Below are positions 42,809-52,445 of a stretch of DNA of 64,000 nucleotides, one piece after another. Source of the stretch: an uncultured Acidimicrobiaceae bacterium (GTDB taxonomy: Bacteria; Actinomycetota; Acidimicrobiia; Spongiisociales; UBA5794); NCBI GenBank assembly GCA_947259365.1, contig CAMYMC010000017.1, forward strand, positions 69,083-133,082, in the 5' to 3' direction. The notes beneath the pieces are model-generated. The model worked only from the letters and a program-made list of their open reading frames with translations, was not told where the DNA came from and did not search any database. The position numbers and the translations under genes were made by a program. Positions within the stretch are counted from its first letter, which is position 1. The number at the start of each line of letters is the position of its first letter.

Positions 42809-43987
42809 ATGGGAGAAGGCGGCATTGCCCCGCTGTTCCTCGCATCGATCCTCAGGCCTGTCGGGACGACCGGTGTCCAGACCCACGCAAACGAGACGGT
42901 CCTGTATCTGCGGAGTGTCGATCAGCCCACAGAGCTCGTAACGCCGTACTCCGATCCATCGTGGTTGCGGACGCCGACGTTCGGGCTTCGGCGCGTCATC
43001 GACCTGTTCCACCGCCCCTCTGGCGTTCGATGGTACCGCCACTGGCATGGCGTCTTCCTCGAGGGCGCGTTGCGAGCCCGTCTGCACAACCTCGGGCCGG
43101 CGGTGGTCTACGCGCAATCTCCCGAGGCGGCGCAGGCGGCGTTGGGTGCTAGACACGCCGGCCAGGCCGTGGTGATGGCCGCCCACTCAGGTGAGTCGCT
43201 TGCGCCCGGGTGGATTCGTAGCGGGCATCTCCGGCCCGGTGACTCCGCCGATCGGGTGATCCGTCGCCAGGAGCAATCGATCATCTCGCAGCTCGATGGA
43301 TTGGTCTACGTCTCGGATTTCGTCCGGCGCCGCATGGAGACGTCGTACCCGGCCGCCACGAGGGTTCCGAGCGCAGTGATCCCAGGGTTTGCCGACATCC
43401 CACCGCCGCCGCCCAACCCGCAAGACCCGATACGCGATCTGATCACCATCGGATGGATGGACGACAACAAGAACCACCGCTTCCTCATCGATGTCGTCGC
43501 CCGGGCCCGGACGTCGGGCCGTGATGTAACGCTCACCGTCGTGGGCGGAGGACCGGACCACGCCCGTCTCCTCGGACATGCTCGCGAGCTTGGAGTGGAT
43601 GATCTGCTCGAGTTCACGGGGCGCGTAGAGAACGCCGCGAATCTCATCCCCCTGCACAGTCTCTACGTCCACGCCGCACGCGTGGAAAGCCTGGGAATCG
43701 CTCTCGTCGAAGCGCTCGGCCACGCCCGCCCGATCCTGGCCCCTGCCGTTGGCGGAATACCTGAGATCTTCACCGACGGGATCGAAGGACTCGTGTGGAA
43801 GACGGACGATGTTGCTGGTGCCACACAGCTCATGTTGACGTTGCTCGGCGATCATGAACGACGGTCGCTCATGGGGTTTGCAGCTCGCGAGACGTTCGAG
43901 CGGCGATTCGCGAAAGCCGTGGTCGCTCCGAGGCTCACGACCTTTCTTCTCGAGGCCTCGGCGAGGCGAGGACGGCAAGCCGGTTGA
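42809..43987 (+). CDS. Glycosyltransferase family 4
   Basis: A 392-residue GT-B glycosyltransferase. The N-terminal acceptor domain contains ILRPVGTTGVQTHANETVLYL; the donor domain has TIGWMDDNKNHRFLIDVVARA, VVGGGPDHARLLGHARELGV and the GT4 EX7E-like ARVESLGIALVEALGHARPILAP. The start is the ATG six bases after a GGGAG. It probably adds one sugar of the polysaccharide repeat on the cytoplasmic face. The exact sugar is unknown. Second gene of a plus-strand group (PIG-L, GT, GT, GMC). Confidence 0.85.
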   Translation: MGEGGIAPLFLASILRPVGTTGVQTHANETVLYLRSVDQPTELVTPYSDPSWLRTPTFGLRRVIDLFHRPSGVRWYRHWHGVFLEGALRARLHNLGPAVVYAQSPEAAQAALGARHAGQAVVMAAHSGESLAPGWIRSGHLRPGDSADRVIRRQEQSIISQLDGLVYVSDFVRRRMETSYPAATRVPSAVIPGFADIPPPPPNPQDPIRDLITIGWMDDNKNHRFLIDVVARARTSGRDVTLTVVGGGPDHARLLGHARELGVDDLLEFTGRVENAANLIPLHSLYVHAARVESLGIALVEALGHARPILAPAVGGIPEIFTDGIEGLVWKTDDVAGATQLMLTLLGDHERRSLMGFAARETFERRFAKAVVAPRLTTFLLEASARRGRQAG

Positions 43988-44078
43988 ACGGGTCAAACCC
44001 CGAAGGGCGGGAGCCGCCGGTTACCCGAAACAAGCCACAACGGCTCGTCTCTCGGGTACCACATCTCAGGGCAATGCA

Positions 44079-45278
44079 GTGCGGGTTCTGACATTTGCGT
44101 TCTCCTGCAGGCCCGGATGGGGCTCCGAACCGGGCGCAGGATGGGGCCTCGTCAGCGCAACGGCTGAATTCGCGCACTGCACGGTGCTCACCGCACCCAT
44201 TGACCACGGTCTCATGACGACCCACCTCGAGGAGCACGGACCGTCATCTATCGAGCCAGTCTGTATTCCTCAACCCGAGCTGCCGAGTGCCCTGCGAAAG
44301 AGTCGCGTGGCGCAGTACATCGAGTACTACGGCTGGCTCCGCAGAGCTCGCCGCGTAGCTGAAGAGCTCGTGCAGAGACGAGCGTACGATCTCGTCCATC
44401 ACGCCACGTTCTCCGTCTACTGGCTCCCGACACCCGCCACGGACCTGGGCCTACCCTCGGTTTGGGGACCCGTCGGCGGGGCCGTGACGACGCCACGCGA
44501 GCTGAGGTCGTTTCTCGGCGTGTCGGGTCTGCCGGAGGAATGGAGCGATCTCGTCTCCGTGTCCGCGCTCGAGAGGCTCCCGGCCACCAGGCGGTCCTGG
44601 CGGAAGTCAACGGCCATCATCGCCCAGAACGAGGAAACGGCGCACCGCATTGCGACCACCGGTCGGAGGGCGCACGTCATCAACCATGCGTTGTTTGTGG
44701 ACTTCCCGGTTGTGGCACCTGAGCCTGCGGGGGAAGCGCTCCTATGGATCGGCGCGATCGAAGCACGCAAGGGTCTTCCGCTCGCTTTGCGCGCGCTTGC
44801 GCAGACGCGACCCGACGTTCGCATGGACATCATCGGCGACGGACCTCTGCGACCGCGAGCGGAGCGTCTCGCCTCCCGGCTGGGTCTGGAGGGCCGAACC
44901 AGGTTCTTGGGAAGAATCGCACGCGAGGAAGCGCTCCGACACGTGTCCAGCGCCACAGCTTGTGTCTTCACCGGCTTACGCGAAGAAGGGGGTCTCGCAC
45001 TCGGCGAGGCGATGCGGCTTGGTTCACCGGTGGTTGTACTCGACCACGGCGGTGCCGGTTCGATTGCGCGCACTGCGGTGGACCCGTCGCGCGTGAGTCT
45101 GATAAGGCCCTCGCAAGCGCAGACCACCGTTCTCGAACTCGCCGCGGCGATGGAGGCGTTCCACGACTCCCCGCCTCGATCCAGGCGCTCGCAGATCGAC
45201 ACCGCCGGCGCCAAGGCACAGCTCTACGAGGTCTTTCAGGAGACGGCCGGCTCAAGAGGTGAGGAAGATGCCGGTTAG
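44079..45278 (+). CDS. Glycosyltransferase family 4
   Basis: A 399-residue GT-B enzyme. Start taken at the GTG of VRVLTFAFSCRPGWGSEPGAGWGL, where the Gly-rich acceptor-domain loop begins; the frame is open upstream but that sequence is not family-like. The donor domain shows ALLWIGAIEARKGLPLALRALA, IIGDGPLRPRAERLASRLGL and VFTGLREEGGLALGEAMRLGSPVVVLD. Lies 91 bases after the previous glycosyltransferase, same strand. Acceptor and donor sugars are not predictable. Confidence 0.85.
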   Translation: MRVLTFAFSCRPGWGSEPGAGWGLVSATAEFAHCTVLTAPIDHGLMTTHLEEHGPSSIEPVCIPQPELPSALRKSRVAQYIEYYGWLRRARRVAEELVQRRAYDLVHHATFSVYWLPTPATDLGLPSVWGPVGGAVTTPRELRSFLGVSGLPEEWSDLVSVSALERLPATRRSWRKSTAIIAQNEETAHRIATTGRRAHVINHALFVDFPVVAPEPAGEALLWIGAIEARKGLPLALRALAQTRPDVRMDIIGDGPLRPRAERLASRLGLEGRTRFLGRIAREEALRHVSSATACVFTGLREEGGLALGEAMRLGSPVVVLDHGGAGSIARTAVDPSRVSLIRPSQAQTTVLELAAAMEAFHDSPPRSRRSQIDTAGAKAQLYEVFQETAGSRGEEDAG

Positions 45279-45335: not shown

Positions 45336-47000
45336 TTGCTCCTCGACGCGTCTGAGATCGCGCACGACACCATCCTTCAGACGGACCTTTGCATCGTGGG
45401 GGCCGGCGCGAGCGGAATCTCGTTCGCCCGGGAGTTCATCGGAGCACCGCTCGACGTGTGCCTGATCGAGGGCGGCGGTCTCACGGAGGAACGTACGAGC
45501 CAGTCCCTGAATCGAGGTTTCCTCGACGGCCTCCCCTACCACGATCTCGATGAGGCCCGGTGGAGGGTGTTCGGAGGGAGTACAGGCAGATGGGCGGGAT
45601 GGTGCCGCCCTCTCGACCCAATCGACTTCGAGGAACGGCCTTGGGTTCCGCTGAGTGGATGGCCCTTCGACCTGGAAGACCTAGAGCCGTATTACCGGAA
45701 GGCGCAGGAGCTCGTCCAGATCCCCACCTATGCATACGAGCCTGATGGGTGGGGGAGCGCTGTACCGCAGCTCTACCGGCCGCCCTTTTCGGGTGGACCG
45801 ATAGAGACGGCTGTGTGGCAGGGCAGCCCCCCGACGAAGTTCGGCGCCGTCTACGTAGAGGAGCTGACACGAGCTCCCAACATCAAGACAATCCTCCACG
45901 GCAACGCGATCGAGCTCGAAGCAGAGCCGGAGAGCTCCCGAGTGTCCGGATTGCGCGTGTCATCTCTCGCCGGACGGACATTCAAAGTGATGGCCCGGAC
46001 GTACGTTCTGACGTGCGGAGCAATCGACACGACACGCCTCCTGCTCGGGTCAAACTCGACAAGATCGGCCGGATTGGGCAACGAGCATGACAACGTTGGC
46101 CGCTACTTCATGGAGCATCCTCACGTCACCGTTGGACGACTGGTCGTTGACCGCCGCGCGTCGAGGTCTGAGGTGCCGGCGGTTGACCGAGGATTCGCTG
46201 GTGCTCGCGAACGGCTGAACCTCCAGCGGCCCTCTCACGGTATAAAGTGCGCGTTCAAGCTGACGGACCACGTTCAGCGCGCCGAGGGTCTCCTCAACTT
46301 CTCCGCTCACCTCAATACGCTTACCCCCGGCGGTGTTCGGGACTCGGACGGCTACAAGGCCTTGAAGCTCATCGTGACGAATCTACGCTCGATGCGTCGG
46401 TTGGCGTCCCAGGTGCGGAATCGGGCCTTGCCAGCTGGCGTCGCGAGACAGATTGGGATGGTGCTCAAGGAGTCCCCCTCACTCACCCGTGCGATCTACC
46501 ACGAGATAGCGAAACGTCCGACTGAACTGGCGATCTATGCGCAGGCAGAGCAGTCGCCGAATCGGGCGAGTCGGGTAAGGCTTGCGGACCAGCGCGATGC
46601 TGTGGGCGTGCCGCTCGCTCGGCTGGACTGGAGGATGACGCAACTGGACAAGATCTCCATCCGTCGATCGTTGGAGCTCCTCGGCGACCACCTGGCGCAA
46701 ACAGGCATAGGACGCGTTGAACCTGCCGAGTGGCTCACGTTGGACGATGAGAGCTGGGGCCCCGACCTCATTGGGGGCATGCACCATCTCGGGACGGCCC
46801 GCATGAGTGCCAGCGCCCGTGACGGGGTCGTGGATGCCACGGGCCGACTCCACAGCATCGACAACGTCTACGTCGCCGACGGATCGGTCCTTCCCACGGG
46901 TGGCTTCTCGAACCCGGCCCTGACGATCGTCGCCGTAGCATTGAAGATTGCCGGCCACGTGCGTAACCGGCTCATCCACCGGTTGCCTCCGGTTATCTGA
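45336..47000 (+). CDS. GMC-family FAD oxidoreductase
   Basis: A 554-residue flavoprotein. The ADP-binding loop DLCIVGAGASGISFARE is at residues about 17-33; WRVFGGSTGRWAGWCRPL is the GMC flavin-contact region; and the C-terminal active-site block contains GGMHHLGTARM and VYVADGSVLPTGGFSNPALT, with the His and Asn expected in the family. GMC enzymes oxidise alcohols or sugars (glucose, choline, pyranose). In an exopolysaccharide cluster it may oxidise a lipid-linked or nucleotide sugar, a tentative idea based only on context. TTG start with GGAGGG upstream. Confidence 0.87.
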   Translation: MLLDASEIAHDTILQTDLCIVGAGASGISFAREFIGAPLDVCLIEGGGLTEERTSQSLNRGFLDGLPYHDLDEARWRVFGGSTGRWAGWCRPLDPIDFEERPWVPLSGWPFDLEDLEPYYRKAQELVQIPTYAYEPDGWGSAVPQLYRPPFSGGPIETAVWQGSPPTKFGAVYVEELTRAPNIKTILHGNAIELEAEPESSRVSGLRVSSLAGRTFKVMARTYVLTCGAIDTTRLLLGSNSTRSAGLGNEHDNVGRYFMEHPHVTVGRLVVDRRASRSEVPAVDRGFAGARERLNLQRPSHGIKCAFKLTDHVQRAEGLLNFSAHLNTLTPGGVRDSDGYKALKLIVTNLRSMRRLASQVRNRALPAGVARQIGMVLKESPSLTRAIYHEIAKRPTELAIYAQAEQSPNRASRVRLADQRDAVGVPLARLDWRMTQLDKISIRRSLELLGDHLAQTGIGRVEPAEWLTLDDESWGPDLIGGMHHLGTARMSASARDGVVDATGRLHSIDNVYVADGSVLPTGGFSNPALTIVAVALKIAGHVRNRLIHRLPPVI

Positions 47001-47363
47001 TGAACCCACCGTGCCACAGTCGTGTGGGCGGACAGACCGAACACCATGCCATCGATTACCCGATAAAGCATCAAAAGGAAGGGTCGCAGGCCGATAAGAG
47101 GGATCAGTGCTCCGCCCGTCAGTGCGGTCGATTGGCGGTTCGTCGGCGAGAGGAATGACGCTGTGCCACGGATGATTACTCATCCCTCGAGCGGGTACTC
47201 GCTGGCGGGGGGTGACGAAGACTCGTCGATCCGAGGTTGGAAAAGTACCCTCCGTAGTGGTAGAACACAGAGGGTACTATTCCCACGCAGAGTAGGCTCT
47301 TCTACTAAGGTATCCACTACGGGGAACCTTGGGCTAGGCATCAGGGCAAGGGGGTAGGTCAGT
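47001..47363. promoter_or_regulatory. Long structured leader/intergenic region before ugd
   Basis: A 363-base spacer without a convincing gene; an in-frame 64-codon ORF inside it has no family likeness. From 47239 it holds a near-perfect inverted repeat (47239-47252 with 47270-47283, 13 of 14 pairs, 17-base loop) whose loop and arm junction, CCGTAGTGG at 47252-47260, is the exact complement of CCACTACGG at 47314-47322. A smaller AGTAG/CTACT hairpin lies between. The pattern is pseudoknot-like. The stretch is also visibly less G+C-rich than its surroundings. Confidence 0.55.
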
Positions 47364-48740
47364 ATGAAAGCGAACCGGGTGGCCGTCGTGGGGAGCGGCT
47401 ACGTCGGCACCGTCGTGGCCGCCTGCCTCGGCAGCGTCGGCCACGAGGTCATCGGTGTCGAAAACGACGCCGAGAAGCTGGGAAGGCTCCAGACAGGCAG
47501 CGCGCCGTTCTACGAGCCCGGCCTGGATGAAGTCATCGCAAAAGCGATGGAAACCGGCCAGCTCGTGTTCACAGACGACATGTCACTCGCGATGGACCGG
47601 TCGGATGTTGTGTTTCTCTGCGTCGGCACACCATCCGGAGGGAATGGCCATCCCGAATTGGACGGGGTCGCCGCTGCAGTTCGAGCCATCGGGGCCAGTC
47701 TCCGACACAGCCACGTCCTCGTGACCAAGAGCACCGTTCCTATTGGGAGCGGGATGTGGCTGGAGCAACTCCTGGAGGATGCGCTGCCGAACGGCGGTTC
47801 GGACACGCCGCTCTTCTCAGTGGTGTCCAATCCGGAGTTCCTTCGTGAAGGCAGTGCGATCGAAGACTTCCTACATCCAGATCGCATCGTGCTGGGGAGC
47901 GGCGACCAGAGCGCGATCGCGATAGCTGAAGACGTGTACAGGCCAATCCTTGACCAATCCTTCGATGGCGGAGATCCCGAGCATCGCCCCGTGATCATCC
48001 GGACGGGCCTCGAGACCGCGGAGACGATCAAGTACGCGGCCAACGCCTTTCTCGCCTCCAAGATCAGCTTCATCAACGAGATCGCGCAGATCTGCGAGCG
48101 CGTTGGTGCTGACGTCACCGTCGTCGCCGATGCGATCGGGTTGGACAGCCGGATCGGGAGGGACTTCCTGAACGCCGGTGTCGGATGGGGTGGCTCGTGC
48201 TTCTCCAAGGACTTGGGTGCACTGTCCGCCATGGCCAAAGACTATGGGGTTGCTCCCCGCATGCTCGATGCGGTTGCCGCGGTCAACAAGAGCCAGCGGT
48301 TCGTCTTGGTGGAGAAACTCCAGGCCAGGCTGAAGTCGCTTCGGGGCCGGCGGGTGGCACTACTCGGTCTCGCCTTCAAGCCTGGTACGGACGATCTCCG
48401 AGACGCACCATCGCTGGAAATCGCCGAGCGACTCCACGAGTTGGGTGCGTCCGTCGTCGCATACGACCCGGTCGTCAAGGACCTGCCTGAGGATCTGCGC
48501 CTCCGGAGGGCCTCTGACCCCTACCTGGCTGCCGAGAGGGCGGATGCCCTCATTCTCGTAACCGACTGGCCAGAGTTCGCCGAACTCAACTTTGAGAGAC
48601 TGGCGACCGCGATGCGCGGTTCGATCGTGCTCGATGGCAGGAACATGCTTCCGGTCGACGCCGTGACGAAGGCTGGTCTCACCTACGAAGGCGTGGGCCG
48701 TGGCGACATCGGACCTCTCCGCGATCGCGGCCCCGGTTGA
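47364..48740 (+). CDS. ugd: UDP-glucose 6-dehydrogenase
   Basis: A 458-residue enzyme that oxidises UDP-glucose to UDP-glucuronate with two NAD+. The Rossmann loop is VAVVGSGYVGTVVAACL, the central region SNPEFLREGSAIEDFLHPDRIV is conserved, and the catalytic Cys is in GVGWGGSCFSKDLGAL. The third domain has LLGLAFKPGTDDLRDAPSLEIAERL. Full length. It supplies glucuronate for the exopolysaccharide and for the ArnA-like decarboxylase. The ATG is preceded by a G-rich stretch and by the structured leader. Confidence 0.96.
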   Translation: MKANRVAVVGSGYVGTVVAACLGSVGHEVIGVENDAEKLGRLQTGSAPFYEPGLDEVIAKAMETGQLVFTDDMSLAMDRSDVVFLCVGTPSGGNGHPELDGVAAAVRAIGASLRHSHVLVTKSTVPIGSGMWLEQLLEDALPNGGSDTPLFSVVSNPEFLREGSAIEDFLHPDRIVLGSGDQSAIAIAEDVYRPILDQSFDGGDPEHRPVIIRTGLETAETIKYAANAFLASKISFINEIAQICERVGADVTVVADAIGLDSRIGRDFLNAGVGWGGSCFSKDLGALSAMAKDYGVAPRMLDAVAAVNKSQRFVLVEKLQARLKSLRGRRVALLGLAFKPGTDDLRDAPSLEIAERLHELGASVVAYDPVVKDLPEDLRLRRASDPYLAAERADALILVTDWPEFAELNFERLATAMRGSIVLDGRNMLPVDAVTKAGLTYEGVGRGDIGPLRDRGPG

Positions 48741-48796: not shown

Positions 48797-50611
48797 TCAG
48801 GAAGTGTGGCCGAGAACGTCCGCCATCGACCCCTCCGACGCCGTCATGTCGGCGCGAAGCGGCGCGAGGTTGTAGATGTAGCCGACTGCCCGCGTTCCGA
48901 GGAGTTCGAGCCGGCCGCTGAGTTGTTGGAGGTCCGCCGCGTGGCCTCCGTGCGGAACGACGATGAGAGCACCGTCAACGAGTCCGACCACGGCGCTGGC
49001 GTACGCGACCTGAAGGAGCGGCGGCGTGTCGAGCAGGACGAAATCGTATGACTCGCTGACCCGATGTAGGAATTCACGCGTCTCCGGAAGGCTGAAGAAC
49101 TCAGGCGCGTTGCTCCTCCGCATTCCCCGGGCCAGGAGGTGGAGCCCCGAGCCGTCCGAACTCCCCTCAACGGCTACGACAGACTCGGAAAGCGGCAGCC
49201 CCTCCAGCACAACCTCAGTGAAGCCGCGCTCGGGCCGCGCATCGGGTGCAAGGAGTTGGGTGGCAAGTTGGTTTCCGAAGTCGGCATCGATCAGGAGCAC
49301 CCGCTTGCCCGTGCGGGCCACGGCAAGGGCGGTGTTCACCGCGACCACGGTCTTGCCCTCCGCCACCTTCGCAGAGGTTATTGCGATCGACGTTCCGCCT
49401 CCCCCGCCTGGTGCGACGCGGTTGTTTCCGGCGACACGCGCCGACTGAAGAGCGGAAGCAGCAAACCGGAAGGCTTCGGCCGAAGCCGATCGGGGCGCCG
49501 TCCGCACCGGCACAGGTGACCTCACGCCCTCTTGCCGGAAGGAGGGGACCTCTGCGATCAGCGGCGACCCGAGGACGAGTGCCGGCTCGCCCCGGTCGTC
49601 GAAGCGACGCCGTCGGAGGGCGAGGGAATAGGCACCGATCACGCCCAGGACCGCACCGATAATCGCTCCGAGCGCCGTAGTCTGTGCCGTGTTGGACACC
49701 CGGACGGCTTCCTCCGCCGTCGTGCTGATGCGTACGCCGGTGCCGAGCAGCTCACCGTCGAGCCGGATTCCGTCTCGCCTCGCCTCGAGGTCGTCGATGC
49801 GATTGATGAGTTGTGTTTGGCGGAGAAGCAGCTCTGCTAGCTCAGCGTCGGTTGCCTCGAGCGCGCGCACCGAGTTGACGGCGTCGAGGATCAGCGTGAT
49901 GTCATCGATTTCATCCCGGAGGGCCGTCCGCGCCTCGGGCGTCGTCGCTGCGAGCAGGCGGGTTTGGAGGCTGGTGAGCCTTGCACGTAGCGCGTCCAGG
50001 TCTCCAAGTAGCGCGTCCTCGCCCGGGTCGGTCGTTCCAGTGATCTCGTTGATCCGCGCCCTCACCTCGGTCGACTGCCGATTCAACTCGTCGATCGACT
50101 CGTCGAGAACGGTGATCGAAGAGGCAAAAGTCGCACTCGCCTGCGATCGCAGCAAGGTCTCGTAACTCTCGATGAAGCTGTTTGCCCCGAGAATGGCCTG
50201 GTCGCGGGTCACCGCGATGACGGTGATGTTGATGAGGGCCGTGCCCTCCCCCTTCGTGTCGACATCGACTGAGTCCAGAAGGTCCTCGGTCGAAACCGGG
50301 GGGGCCACCCCTTTCTCGTTCATGAGATCGGCGGCGCGCCTTGCCACCTCGGACGAGCGCATAACCTCCACCTGGTCGGCGACGTAGTCTTCCGTCCGCT
50401 GGCGCGGAGCGGCCTCGAACAGGATGGAGGCTCGTGGGTCCTCGACGATGATCGACGCGGTCGCTGTGTAGCGTTCCGATTCGACTCCGATGGCAAAGAG
50501 CCACGCGAGGAATCCGAACATGGCGGTCGCGACCACCACGAGGCCGCGGTATCGCCAGGCCGCACCCAAGACGGTGGGCTCGAGAGTTCCCGTCGGTTCA
50601 ATCGCTCGCAC
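48797..50611 (-). CDS. Chain-length determinant / BY-kinase-like ATPase (Wzc/CpsD fusion)
   Basis: A 604-residue inner-membrane protein controlling polysaccharide length and export. N-terminal Wzz domain: TM helix (LVVVATAMFGFLAWLFAIGV), periplasmic coiled coil, second TM helix (ALGAIIGAVLGVIGAYSLAL) followed by the cytoplasmic ATPase (ITSAKVAEGKTVVAVNTALA as Walker A, VLLIDADFGNQLA as Walker A', FVLLDTPPLL as Walker B). The C-terminus ends LRADMTASEGSMADVLGHTS without the tyrosine cluster that is autophosphorylated in classical BY-kinases. So it is a Wzc-like ATPase of uncertain kinase activity. GTG start; a 215-base spacer with nothing recognisable separates it from the sugar transferase. 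Confidence 0.87.
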   Translation of the reverse strand: MRAIEPTGTLEPTVLGAAWRYRGLVVVATAMFGFLAWLFAIGVESERYTATASIIVEDPRASILFEAAPRQRTEDYVADQVEVMRSSEVARRAADLMNEKGVAPPVSTEDLLDSVDVDTKGEGTALINITVIAVTRDQAILGANSFIESYETLLRSQASATFASSITVLDESIDELNRQSTEVRARINEITGTTDPGEDALLGDLDALRARLTSLQTRLLAATTPEARTALRDEIDDITLILDAVNSVRALEATDAELAELLLRQTQLINRIDDLEARRDGIRLDGELLGTGVRISTTAEEAVRVSNTAQTTALGAIIGAVLGVIGAYSLALRRRRFDDRGEPALVLGSPLIAEVPSFRQEGVRSPVPVRTAPRSASAEAFRFAASALQSARVAGNNRVAPGGGGGTSIAITSAKVAEGKTVVAVNTALAVARTGKRVLLIDADFGNQLATQLLAPDARPERGFTEVVLEGLPLSESVVAVEGSSDGSGLHLLARGMRRSNAPEFFSLPETREFLHRVSESYDFVLLDTPPLLQVAYASAVVGLVDGALIVVPHGGHAADLQQLSGRLELLGTRAVGYIYNLAPLRADMTASEGSMADVLGHTS

Positions 50612-50826: not shown

Positions 50827-51516
50827 TCAGAAGCCGCGCCGCATGCCGAGGACAGCTGGGATCGTCAGGATGAGGATCTTGAAATCCTGCATGAACGAGA
50901 CGCTCCGGACGTACTCGATGTCGAGCTCCGTTGCCTCGTGCAGGGGCACGTCGCCCCGAGCTGAGACCTGCCAGAGGCCGGAGATACCCGGCTTGACCGA
51001 GTGCCGCTCGTGCTGCCAAGGTTCGTACCCGTCGACGATGGTCATGATTTCGGGCCGCGGACCGACGAGGCTCATGTGCCCGAACGCGACGTTCCACAGC
51101 TGCGGGATCTCATCGAGGCTCCAACGCCTGAGGAACCGTCCAAGGCGCGTGATGCGCGGGTCGTCTCGCGTCTTGTGCGACAGACGGCGGTCATTCATGG
51201 TGATTGGCATACTCATCGAGCGACGATCCGGGACCATGGTGCGGAACTTGTACATGCGGAACGCGCGACCGCCGCGTCCAACTCGCTGTTGAACGAACAG
51301 TGCCGGTCTGCCCATCGTCGACCATATTGCGACGGAGATACCCACTGCCAAAGGCACAGTGACCACCGATAGTGCAACACCGACGAGGCGATCGATGACG
51401 GGCTTGCCGAACAGGACATAGACAGTGCGCGGGGCAGATGCTGTCGTAACTGCCTGCAGATTCCCGTCGCGTGACGCGCTCGCGATGTGAGCGGTCGCCT
51501 GCTCGTGAGCGTCCAT
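50827..51516 (-). CDS. Polyprenyl-phosphate sugar-1-phosphate transferase (initiating enzyme)
   Basis: A 229-residue protein of the bacterial sugar transferase family (WcaJ/WbaP/ExoY type, without the N-terminal five-TM extension). One TM helix (LVGVALSVVTVPLAVGISVAIW) precedes the catalytic domain with VQQRVGRGGRAFRMYKFRTM, LGRFLRRWSLDEIPQLWNV and MSLVGPRPEI, the family hallmark. It would transfer a sugar-1-phosphate from UDP to undecaprenyl phosphate, starting the repeat unit. The ATG chosen (MDAHEQATAH) has a G-rich upstream stretch; the longer frame starts in unrelated sequence. Confidence 0.9.
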   Translation of the reverse strand: MDAHEQATAHIASASRDGNLQAVTTASAPRTVYVLFGKPVIDRLVGVALSVVTVPLAVGISVAIWSTMGRPALFVQQRVGRGGRAFRMYKFRTMVPDRRSMSMPITMNDRRLSHKTRDDPRITRLGRFLRRWSLDEIPQLWNVAFGHMSLVGPRPEIMTIVDGYEPWQHERHSVKPGISGLWQVSARGDVPLHEATELDIEYVRSVSFMQDFKILILTIPAVLGMRRGF

Positions 51517-51685
51517 CCTGCCCCCCACCGGTCGTCTAGCCCTGGTGCCGATCCCCCGGATCGGACCGCCGAAGTGTACACACGGGTCCGCTCGTGACCA
51601 TGATGCACAGCCAACATTGCACTGAGTTGCACTCGGGCAAAGCTCGGATCGGGTCAGTGATGGCGCACTGTGGGCTGACGCGTAC

Positions 51686-52445
51686 TCACCCGCTGCGAGA
51701 ACCTCCACGGGCGCGCCGGCGCAGCTGCGTTGTGACGACCTGATAGCCAGCGAGCATCAGGTACGCGGGGTTGTTCCAGATGTACCGCTTCCAGAGTCGG
51801 CGCGGCTCATGAACCAGGCGATACAGCCACTCGAGCCCTGATCGCTGCATCCAACCCGGCGCTTGCTTTTTCGTGCCTGCCAGGAAATCGAAGGCAGCCC
51901 CGACGCCGATCAATGCGACGCCTGGCAACCGGTCACGAACACGGTGCATCCAGAGCTCTTGTTTGGGCATGCCGAGTCCGACCCACACGATGTCGGCCTT
52001 GCTCGCACGGATTGCAGCAACGTCCACGTCCTCTTCAGCTGTGGTGAGCGGGCGGAACGGGGGCGCCTTCGCGCCGACGACCACGGCAGCCGGTGCAACT
52101 TCGAGGATGCGTCTCCGAATCGCCTCGAGTACTTCGGGTGAGCTCCCGTACAAGTAGTGTCGCCACCGGGAGTGGTCTGATGCCTCGAGGACTCGCAACA
52201 TCAGCTCTGGTCCGTAAACCCGCTCCTGGTTGGGTCGCACCGTTCGCCGAAGGCACCACACAACGGGGACGCCGTCCGGCGTGACGATGTCAGCATCATG
52301 AAGCGCTGATCACCGAGTGGACATTGCAGACCGCGACCACGGTCGCCCGATCCCGACGCCGCTGGGAGAGCGAGGCCAGCACCTCGTCGTAGGAGGTCAT
52401 CGAGATGGGCGTGCCCACGACGGAGGCTCTCGGAGGGAAGCTCAA
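51686..52445 (-). pseudogene. WecG/TagA/CpsF glycosyltransferase, broken by a short deletion
   Basis: The C-terminal 75% is intact in frame (from ADIVTPDGVPVVWCLRR through VRPNQERVYGPELMLRVL and IVWVGLGMPKQELWMH, the family signature, to the Arg-rich end). The N-terminal 50 residues (VVGTPISMTSYDEVLASLSQ ... VVAVCNVHSV) lie in another frame, ending at a stop at 52296-52298. The two join at about 52300-52313: after VHSV only seven bases separate the two frames where the family has roughly 12 residues. That implies a deletion near 29 bases, not a single-base error. The gene likely cannot make a full WecG, which adds ManNAc-type sugars to the lipid carrier. The start is uncertain (TTG at 52445 is the best candidate). 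Confidence 0.78.

Follow-up and report, generated by a model that had tools for sequence, protein, structure and literature searches.

A candidate kissing-loop leader upstream of ugd in an uncultured Acidimicrobiaceae bacterium

Leader RNAs of exopolysaccharide operons are located before polysaccharide genes, and the element described here has the same placement, directly upstream of ugd in an uncultured Acidimicrobiaceae bacterium. However, unlike those leaders it has no sequence or structure match in Rfam and no terminator. Riboswitches and protein-binding leaders that use loop-loop or pseudoknot contacts resemble the element in having compact hairpins and a long-range loop contact directly before the start codon, but the element differs from them in the lack of a conserved aptamer, of relatives and of an Rfam match. 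In H-type pseudoknot leaders, as in the element, the loop of a hairpin pairs with sequence farther downstream. In the element, however, a second predicted hairpin holds the downstream strand in its loop, and a classic stack would be awkward because stem and loop helix are joined by a link of zero nucleotides. A search of the literature on leaders known for ugd or for exopolysaccharide genes found nothing matching the element. The window (the whole 64,000-nucleotide stretch analysed) gave 0 matches to Rfam 15 at the gathering threshold and, at E<=10, only two chance matches on the minus strand, both to RNA families of animals, which agrees with the first-pass annotation, where the element was not recognised as any known class. 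A tRNA/tmRNA-like reading of GTGGTAGAACAC was dropped, as ARAGORN calls no gene there.

The gene itself (47364-48740, plus strand) encodes a UDP-glucose/nucleotide-sugar dehydrogenase of the Ugd type, 458 aa long, whose product matches the N, central and C domains of Pfam UDPG_MGDP_dh. These matches confirmed that the element sits in the gap preceding ugd, which is 363 nt long, and its G+C content was, as had been claimed, lower than that of its surroundings (50% for 47239-47322, compared to 58% for the intergenic gap and 67.5% for the 64-kb window). The reading we prefer, though only tentatively, is that the element gives the ugd mRNA a structured leader that acts in cis; its hairpins P1 and P3 would kiss, it would perhaps control translation, and it seems restricted to the source lineage. 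If functional, the element would add a new cis-regulatory RNA at the step that leads into UDP-glucuronate, and hence into exopolysaccharide, for an actinobacterial group in which few RNA switches have been studied. The element is currently a single-sequence candidate. A 64-aa open frame with a GTG start (47163-47357, plus strand) overlaps the element and stops 6 nt 5' of the ugd start codon; it is possibly a leader peptide but more likely a chance frame.

Table 1. Positions in the window of the candidate promoter, the strands and hairpins of the element, and genes around ugd.
Feature	Position	Strand	Remarks
Candidate flagellar/WhiG-type promoter, CAAA-N14-GCCGATAA	47072-47097	+	start expected near 47103
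P0 5' strand, TCCGAGGTT	47230-47238	+	partner 47325-47333; 9 pairs including 2 G-U
P1 5' arm, GGAAAAGTACCCTC	47239-47252	+	read directly from sequence
Kissing/pseudoknot strand, CCGTAGTGG	47252-47260	+	P1 loop and arm end
P1 loop, 17 nt	47253-47269	+	between P1 arms
P1 3' arm, GAGGGTACTATTCC	47270-47283	+	read directly from sequence
P2 small hairpin, AGTAG-GCTCTT-CTACT	47291-47306	+	AGTAG 47291-47295 / CTACT 47302-47306
P3 hairpin, 14-nt loop ATCCACTACGGGGA	47305-47332	+	CTAAGGT 47305-47311 / ACCTTGG 47326-47332
Kissing/pseudoknot partner, CCACTACGG	47314-47322	+	within P3 loop
P0 3' strand, AACCTTGGG	47325-47333	+	competitor of P3
Shine-Dalgarno region, GGGGGTAG, G-rich	47350-47357	+	complementarity read; putative role
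Glycosyltransferase	43854-45278		polysaccharide region around ugd
GMC oxidoreductase	45336-47000		polysaccharide region around ugd
Wzz/ATPase	48797-50611		polysaccharide region around ugd
Sugar transferase	50827-51708	-	polysaccharide region around ugd

Direct reading bore out the pairings that the first-pass annotation had reported. The arms of P1 pair at 13 of 14 positions around the 17-base loop, the sole mismatch being A-A (47243/47279), the small AGTAG/CTACT hairpin is present, and CCGTAGTGG is the exact reverse complement of CCACTACGG over 9 bases. However, base 47252 had been counted twice; it is common to P1 and the loop helix, so 8 bp are left when P1 is fully closed. The loop-loop match reaches 47250-47260/47314-47324 if one G-T pair is allowed. 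A listing of helices adds P3 and P0, both of which had been overlooked; these two are mutually exclusive, and P3 in its longest form overlaps P2 by 2 nt. The earlier description of a pseudoknot layout therefore holds for its pairings but not for an H-type topology, because CCACTACGG lies inside the second hairpin, P3, and the kissing-loop reading fits better. P1 and P3 together offer two hairpins with 9 complementary loop bases, which is a potential of the sequence only. The topology thus appears to be one of kissing loops, not a pseudoknot, and the element is best described as an orphan candidate leader. The topology also needs revising in that P0, an outer helix, offers an alternative state. 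It should also be noted that GGGTACT occurs twice within 90 nt (47193-47199 and 47272-47278), giving two possible partners for the P1 5' arm.

In a predicted fold of 47103-47400, the pair probability was 0.997 for P1 and 0.97 for P3, with a folding program that is blind to the loop-loop match. Before any kissing contact, the nested folds P0+P1+P2, P0+long helix+P2 and P1+P2+P3 had predicted energies of -32.3, -30.1 and -25.1 kcal/mol, which suggests that the nested alternatives are close to one another in energy. The simultaneous formation of P0, full P1 and the loop helix was judged unlikely on geometric grounds, as two nucleotides would have to bridge a 14-bp stem.

The mechanism proposed for the preferred reading is that P1 and P3 fold locally and that their loops would kiss via CCGUAGUGG/CCACUACGG, with P0 as a competing fold, such that the choice between P0 and P3 would take part in locking and releasing. 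The most likely role would be control of ugd translation through P1. The Shine-Dalgarno region is complementary to 47277-47284 (8 pairs) and partly to 47246-47252 (7 pairs), and these C-rich stretches of the P1 arms (CUAUUCCC and UACCCUC, respectively) may be able to pair with it. With P1 closed and locked by the kissing contact the ribosome site would be free, and with P1 opened it could be masked. The complementarities, their rarity for the composition and the location before ugd are established from the sequence; from these we infer transcription through the element, folding in the cell and any switching in response to a signal. Transcription attenuation is argued against because there is no intrinsic terminator after the element, no terminator-like site having been found in 46950-47400.

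One caveat is that such an arrangement may have arisen by chance. A stem with at least 13 of 14 positions paired (loop 3-30) appeared in 13 of 20,000 dinucleotide shuffles of the 363-nt gap, and the full arrangement of two hairpins with a loop-loop match in 2 of 34,957 composition-preserving shuffles of a 164-nt stretch. Whole-window shuffles gave an expectation of about 1.1 stems of P1 quality per 64 kb compared to nine in the real window; eight of these are inside long open frames, and P1 alone is not. In shuffles of the window, a stem of at least 9 bp crossed by a helix of at least 8 bp was expected about 0.5 times per strand, and the kissing-type score was exceeded in at least 20 G+C-rich stretches of the same window. 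It should be noted that the kissing arrangement was defined post hoc, once the sequence had been seen, in a 64-kb search with free choice of motif. We take the support as moderate: the element is unusual for its composition yet within reach of a search that wide. Chance, meaning an unconstrained intergenic stretch that by accident holds several complementary 7-9-mers alongside a strong inverted repeat and was picked out by motif reading of the whole window, is a serious possibility, nearly as probable as the preferred reading. It fits the expectations from the window shuffles and the fact that conservation was found in none of the genomes searched, samples that contained no congener of the source. 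However, it does not readily explain the rarity of the element for its local composition, or the packing of several helices into one non-coding 100-nt stretch before a start codon.

Several searches for relatives were made. BLAST of the element and leader against 50 family and 395 class genomes returned only short chance matches; plasmids gave no match, and phages only 30-base chance matches. Covariance models were built from P0+P1+P2 (R1; run on 138 order, 395 class and 397 phylum genomes) and from P1+P2+P3 (R2; run on 395 class genomes), and in these samples both returned the window itself and weak matches in or against coding frames, and no relative. Both models were built on one sequence and run with stricter filters on large samples, so distant relatives may escape them. 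The stronger model matches (L057 and L177, 27-27.9 bits) and the weaker ones (L058 and L178-L181, 19-24 bits) fell within long open frames or on the strand opposite them, in most cases retained only one hairpin, and were set aside as chance. The same was concluded for a 17-mer, GTAGTGGTAGAACACAG, present in three viral contigs, two of which matched little past that word in the model search (11.7 bits). The nearest Ugd proteins were only 65% identical, and the element was missing from the leader of every one of the closest ugd homologues that were examined, whose upstream DNA has no leader that aligns. An aptamer core conserved between species, as in a riboswitch, was thus not found by BLAST or the two covariance models in these congener-free samples. 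As far as can be seen from these genomes, the element appears confined to the source lineage. We consider it improbable that the element belongs to a new class of narrow distribution, a kissing-loop riboswitch or a protein-binding leader that would control how much UDP-glucuronate is supplied for exopolysaccharide in Acidimicrobiia.

Two further explanations concern the DNA. If a mobile element (a small inverted-repeat element or a recombination site) had left a remnant or has its end before ugd, this would account for the nested inverted repeats, with P0 as the outer ends, but the element is single-copy in the genome, plasmids and phages held nothing beyond the 30-base chance matches in the latter, and no mobile-element RNA was matched in Rfam, which makes this explanation very improbable. 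Alternatively, the inverted repeat AGTACCCTC-N17-GAGGGTACT may be an operator or overlap the ugd promoter, with RNA pairing being incidental. Six ugd leaders of another genus (L027, L033 and L035-L038) share a sigma-70-like GTTC-N6/8-TATA(A/C)T about 100 nt upstream, which is probably a conserved promoter. This is the position of the repeat here, where TACTAT (47274-47279) weakly resembles a -10 hexamer, and a start about 100 nt before ugd, as in those relatives, would put the 5' end within P1 and truncate the element. However, no sigma-70-type promoter was called in the gap before ugd, and 17 nt is a long gap for one dimer between arms of 9-14 bp. Only two other sites in the genome carry the half-site AGTACCCTC, fewer than carry its reversed control, and the repeat is absent from other family members, which argues against a regulon-wide operator. 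An operator would also leave the loop-loop match unaccounted for, and we consider this explanation unlikely.

The preferred reading, a leader acting in the mRNA, involves transcription through the element, and this is plausible from the candidate FliA/WhiG promoter. The flagellar/WhiG consensus has TAAA at -35 and GCCGATAA at -10 (PMC8325347). The candidate agrees with it at 8 of 8 positions of the -10 and 3 of 4 of the imperfect -35 (CAAA), with a spacer of 14. Its GCCGATAA box (47090-47097), which precedes the element by about 130 bases, is present as a single copy in the window, compared to 0.63 expected by chance, and if this promoter is used the element would lie within a leader of about 260 nt. 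The genome encodes one FliA/WhiG sigma factor above the family cut-off (268.9 compared to 189.6). Among 110 ugd upstream stretches the flagellar/WhiG-type pattern had 5 matches and the reversed pattern 2, a weak enrichment. In genus g3 (L028 and L029), TAAA-N16-GCCGAAGT before ugd, at -117 of the Ugd match, resembles such a promoter and, taken with the box in the window, is a hint that ugd may be under the control of WhiG in the family.

On contig C16 of the source genome, a single frame (L194; 4683-6338, minus strand) encodes a XerC-like tyrosine recombinase (aa 14-275) followed by a WhiG/FliA sigma factor (aa 293-546). Where these two parts meet, two residues are unresolved (N in the DNA), and the frame may be either a fusion or an artefact of assembly or masking.
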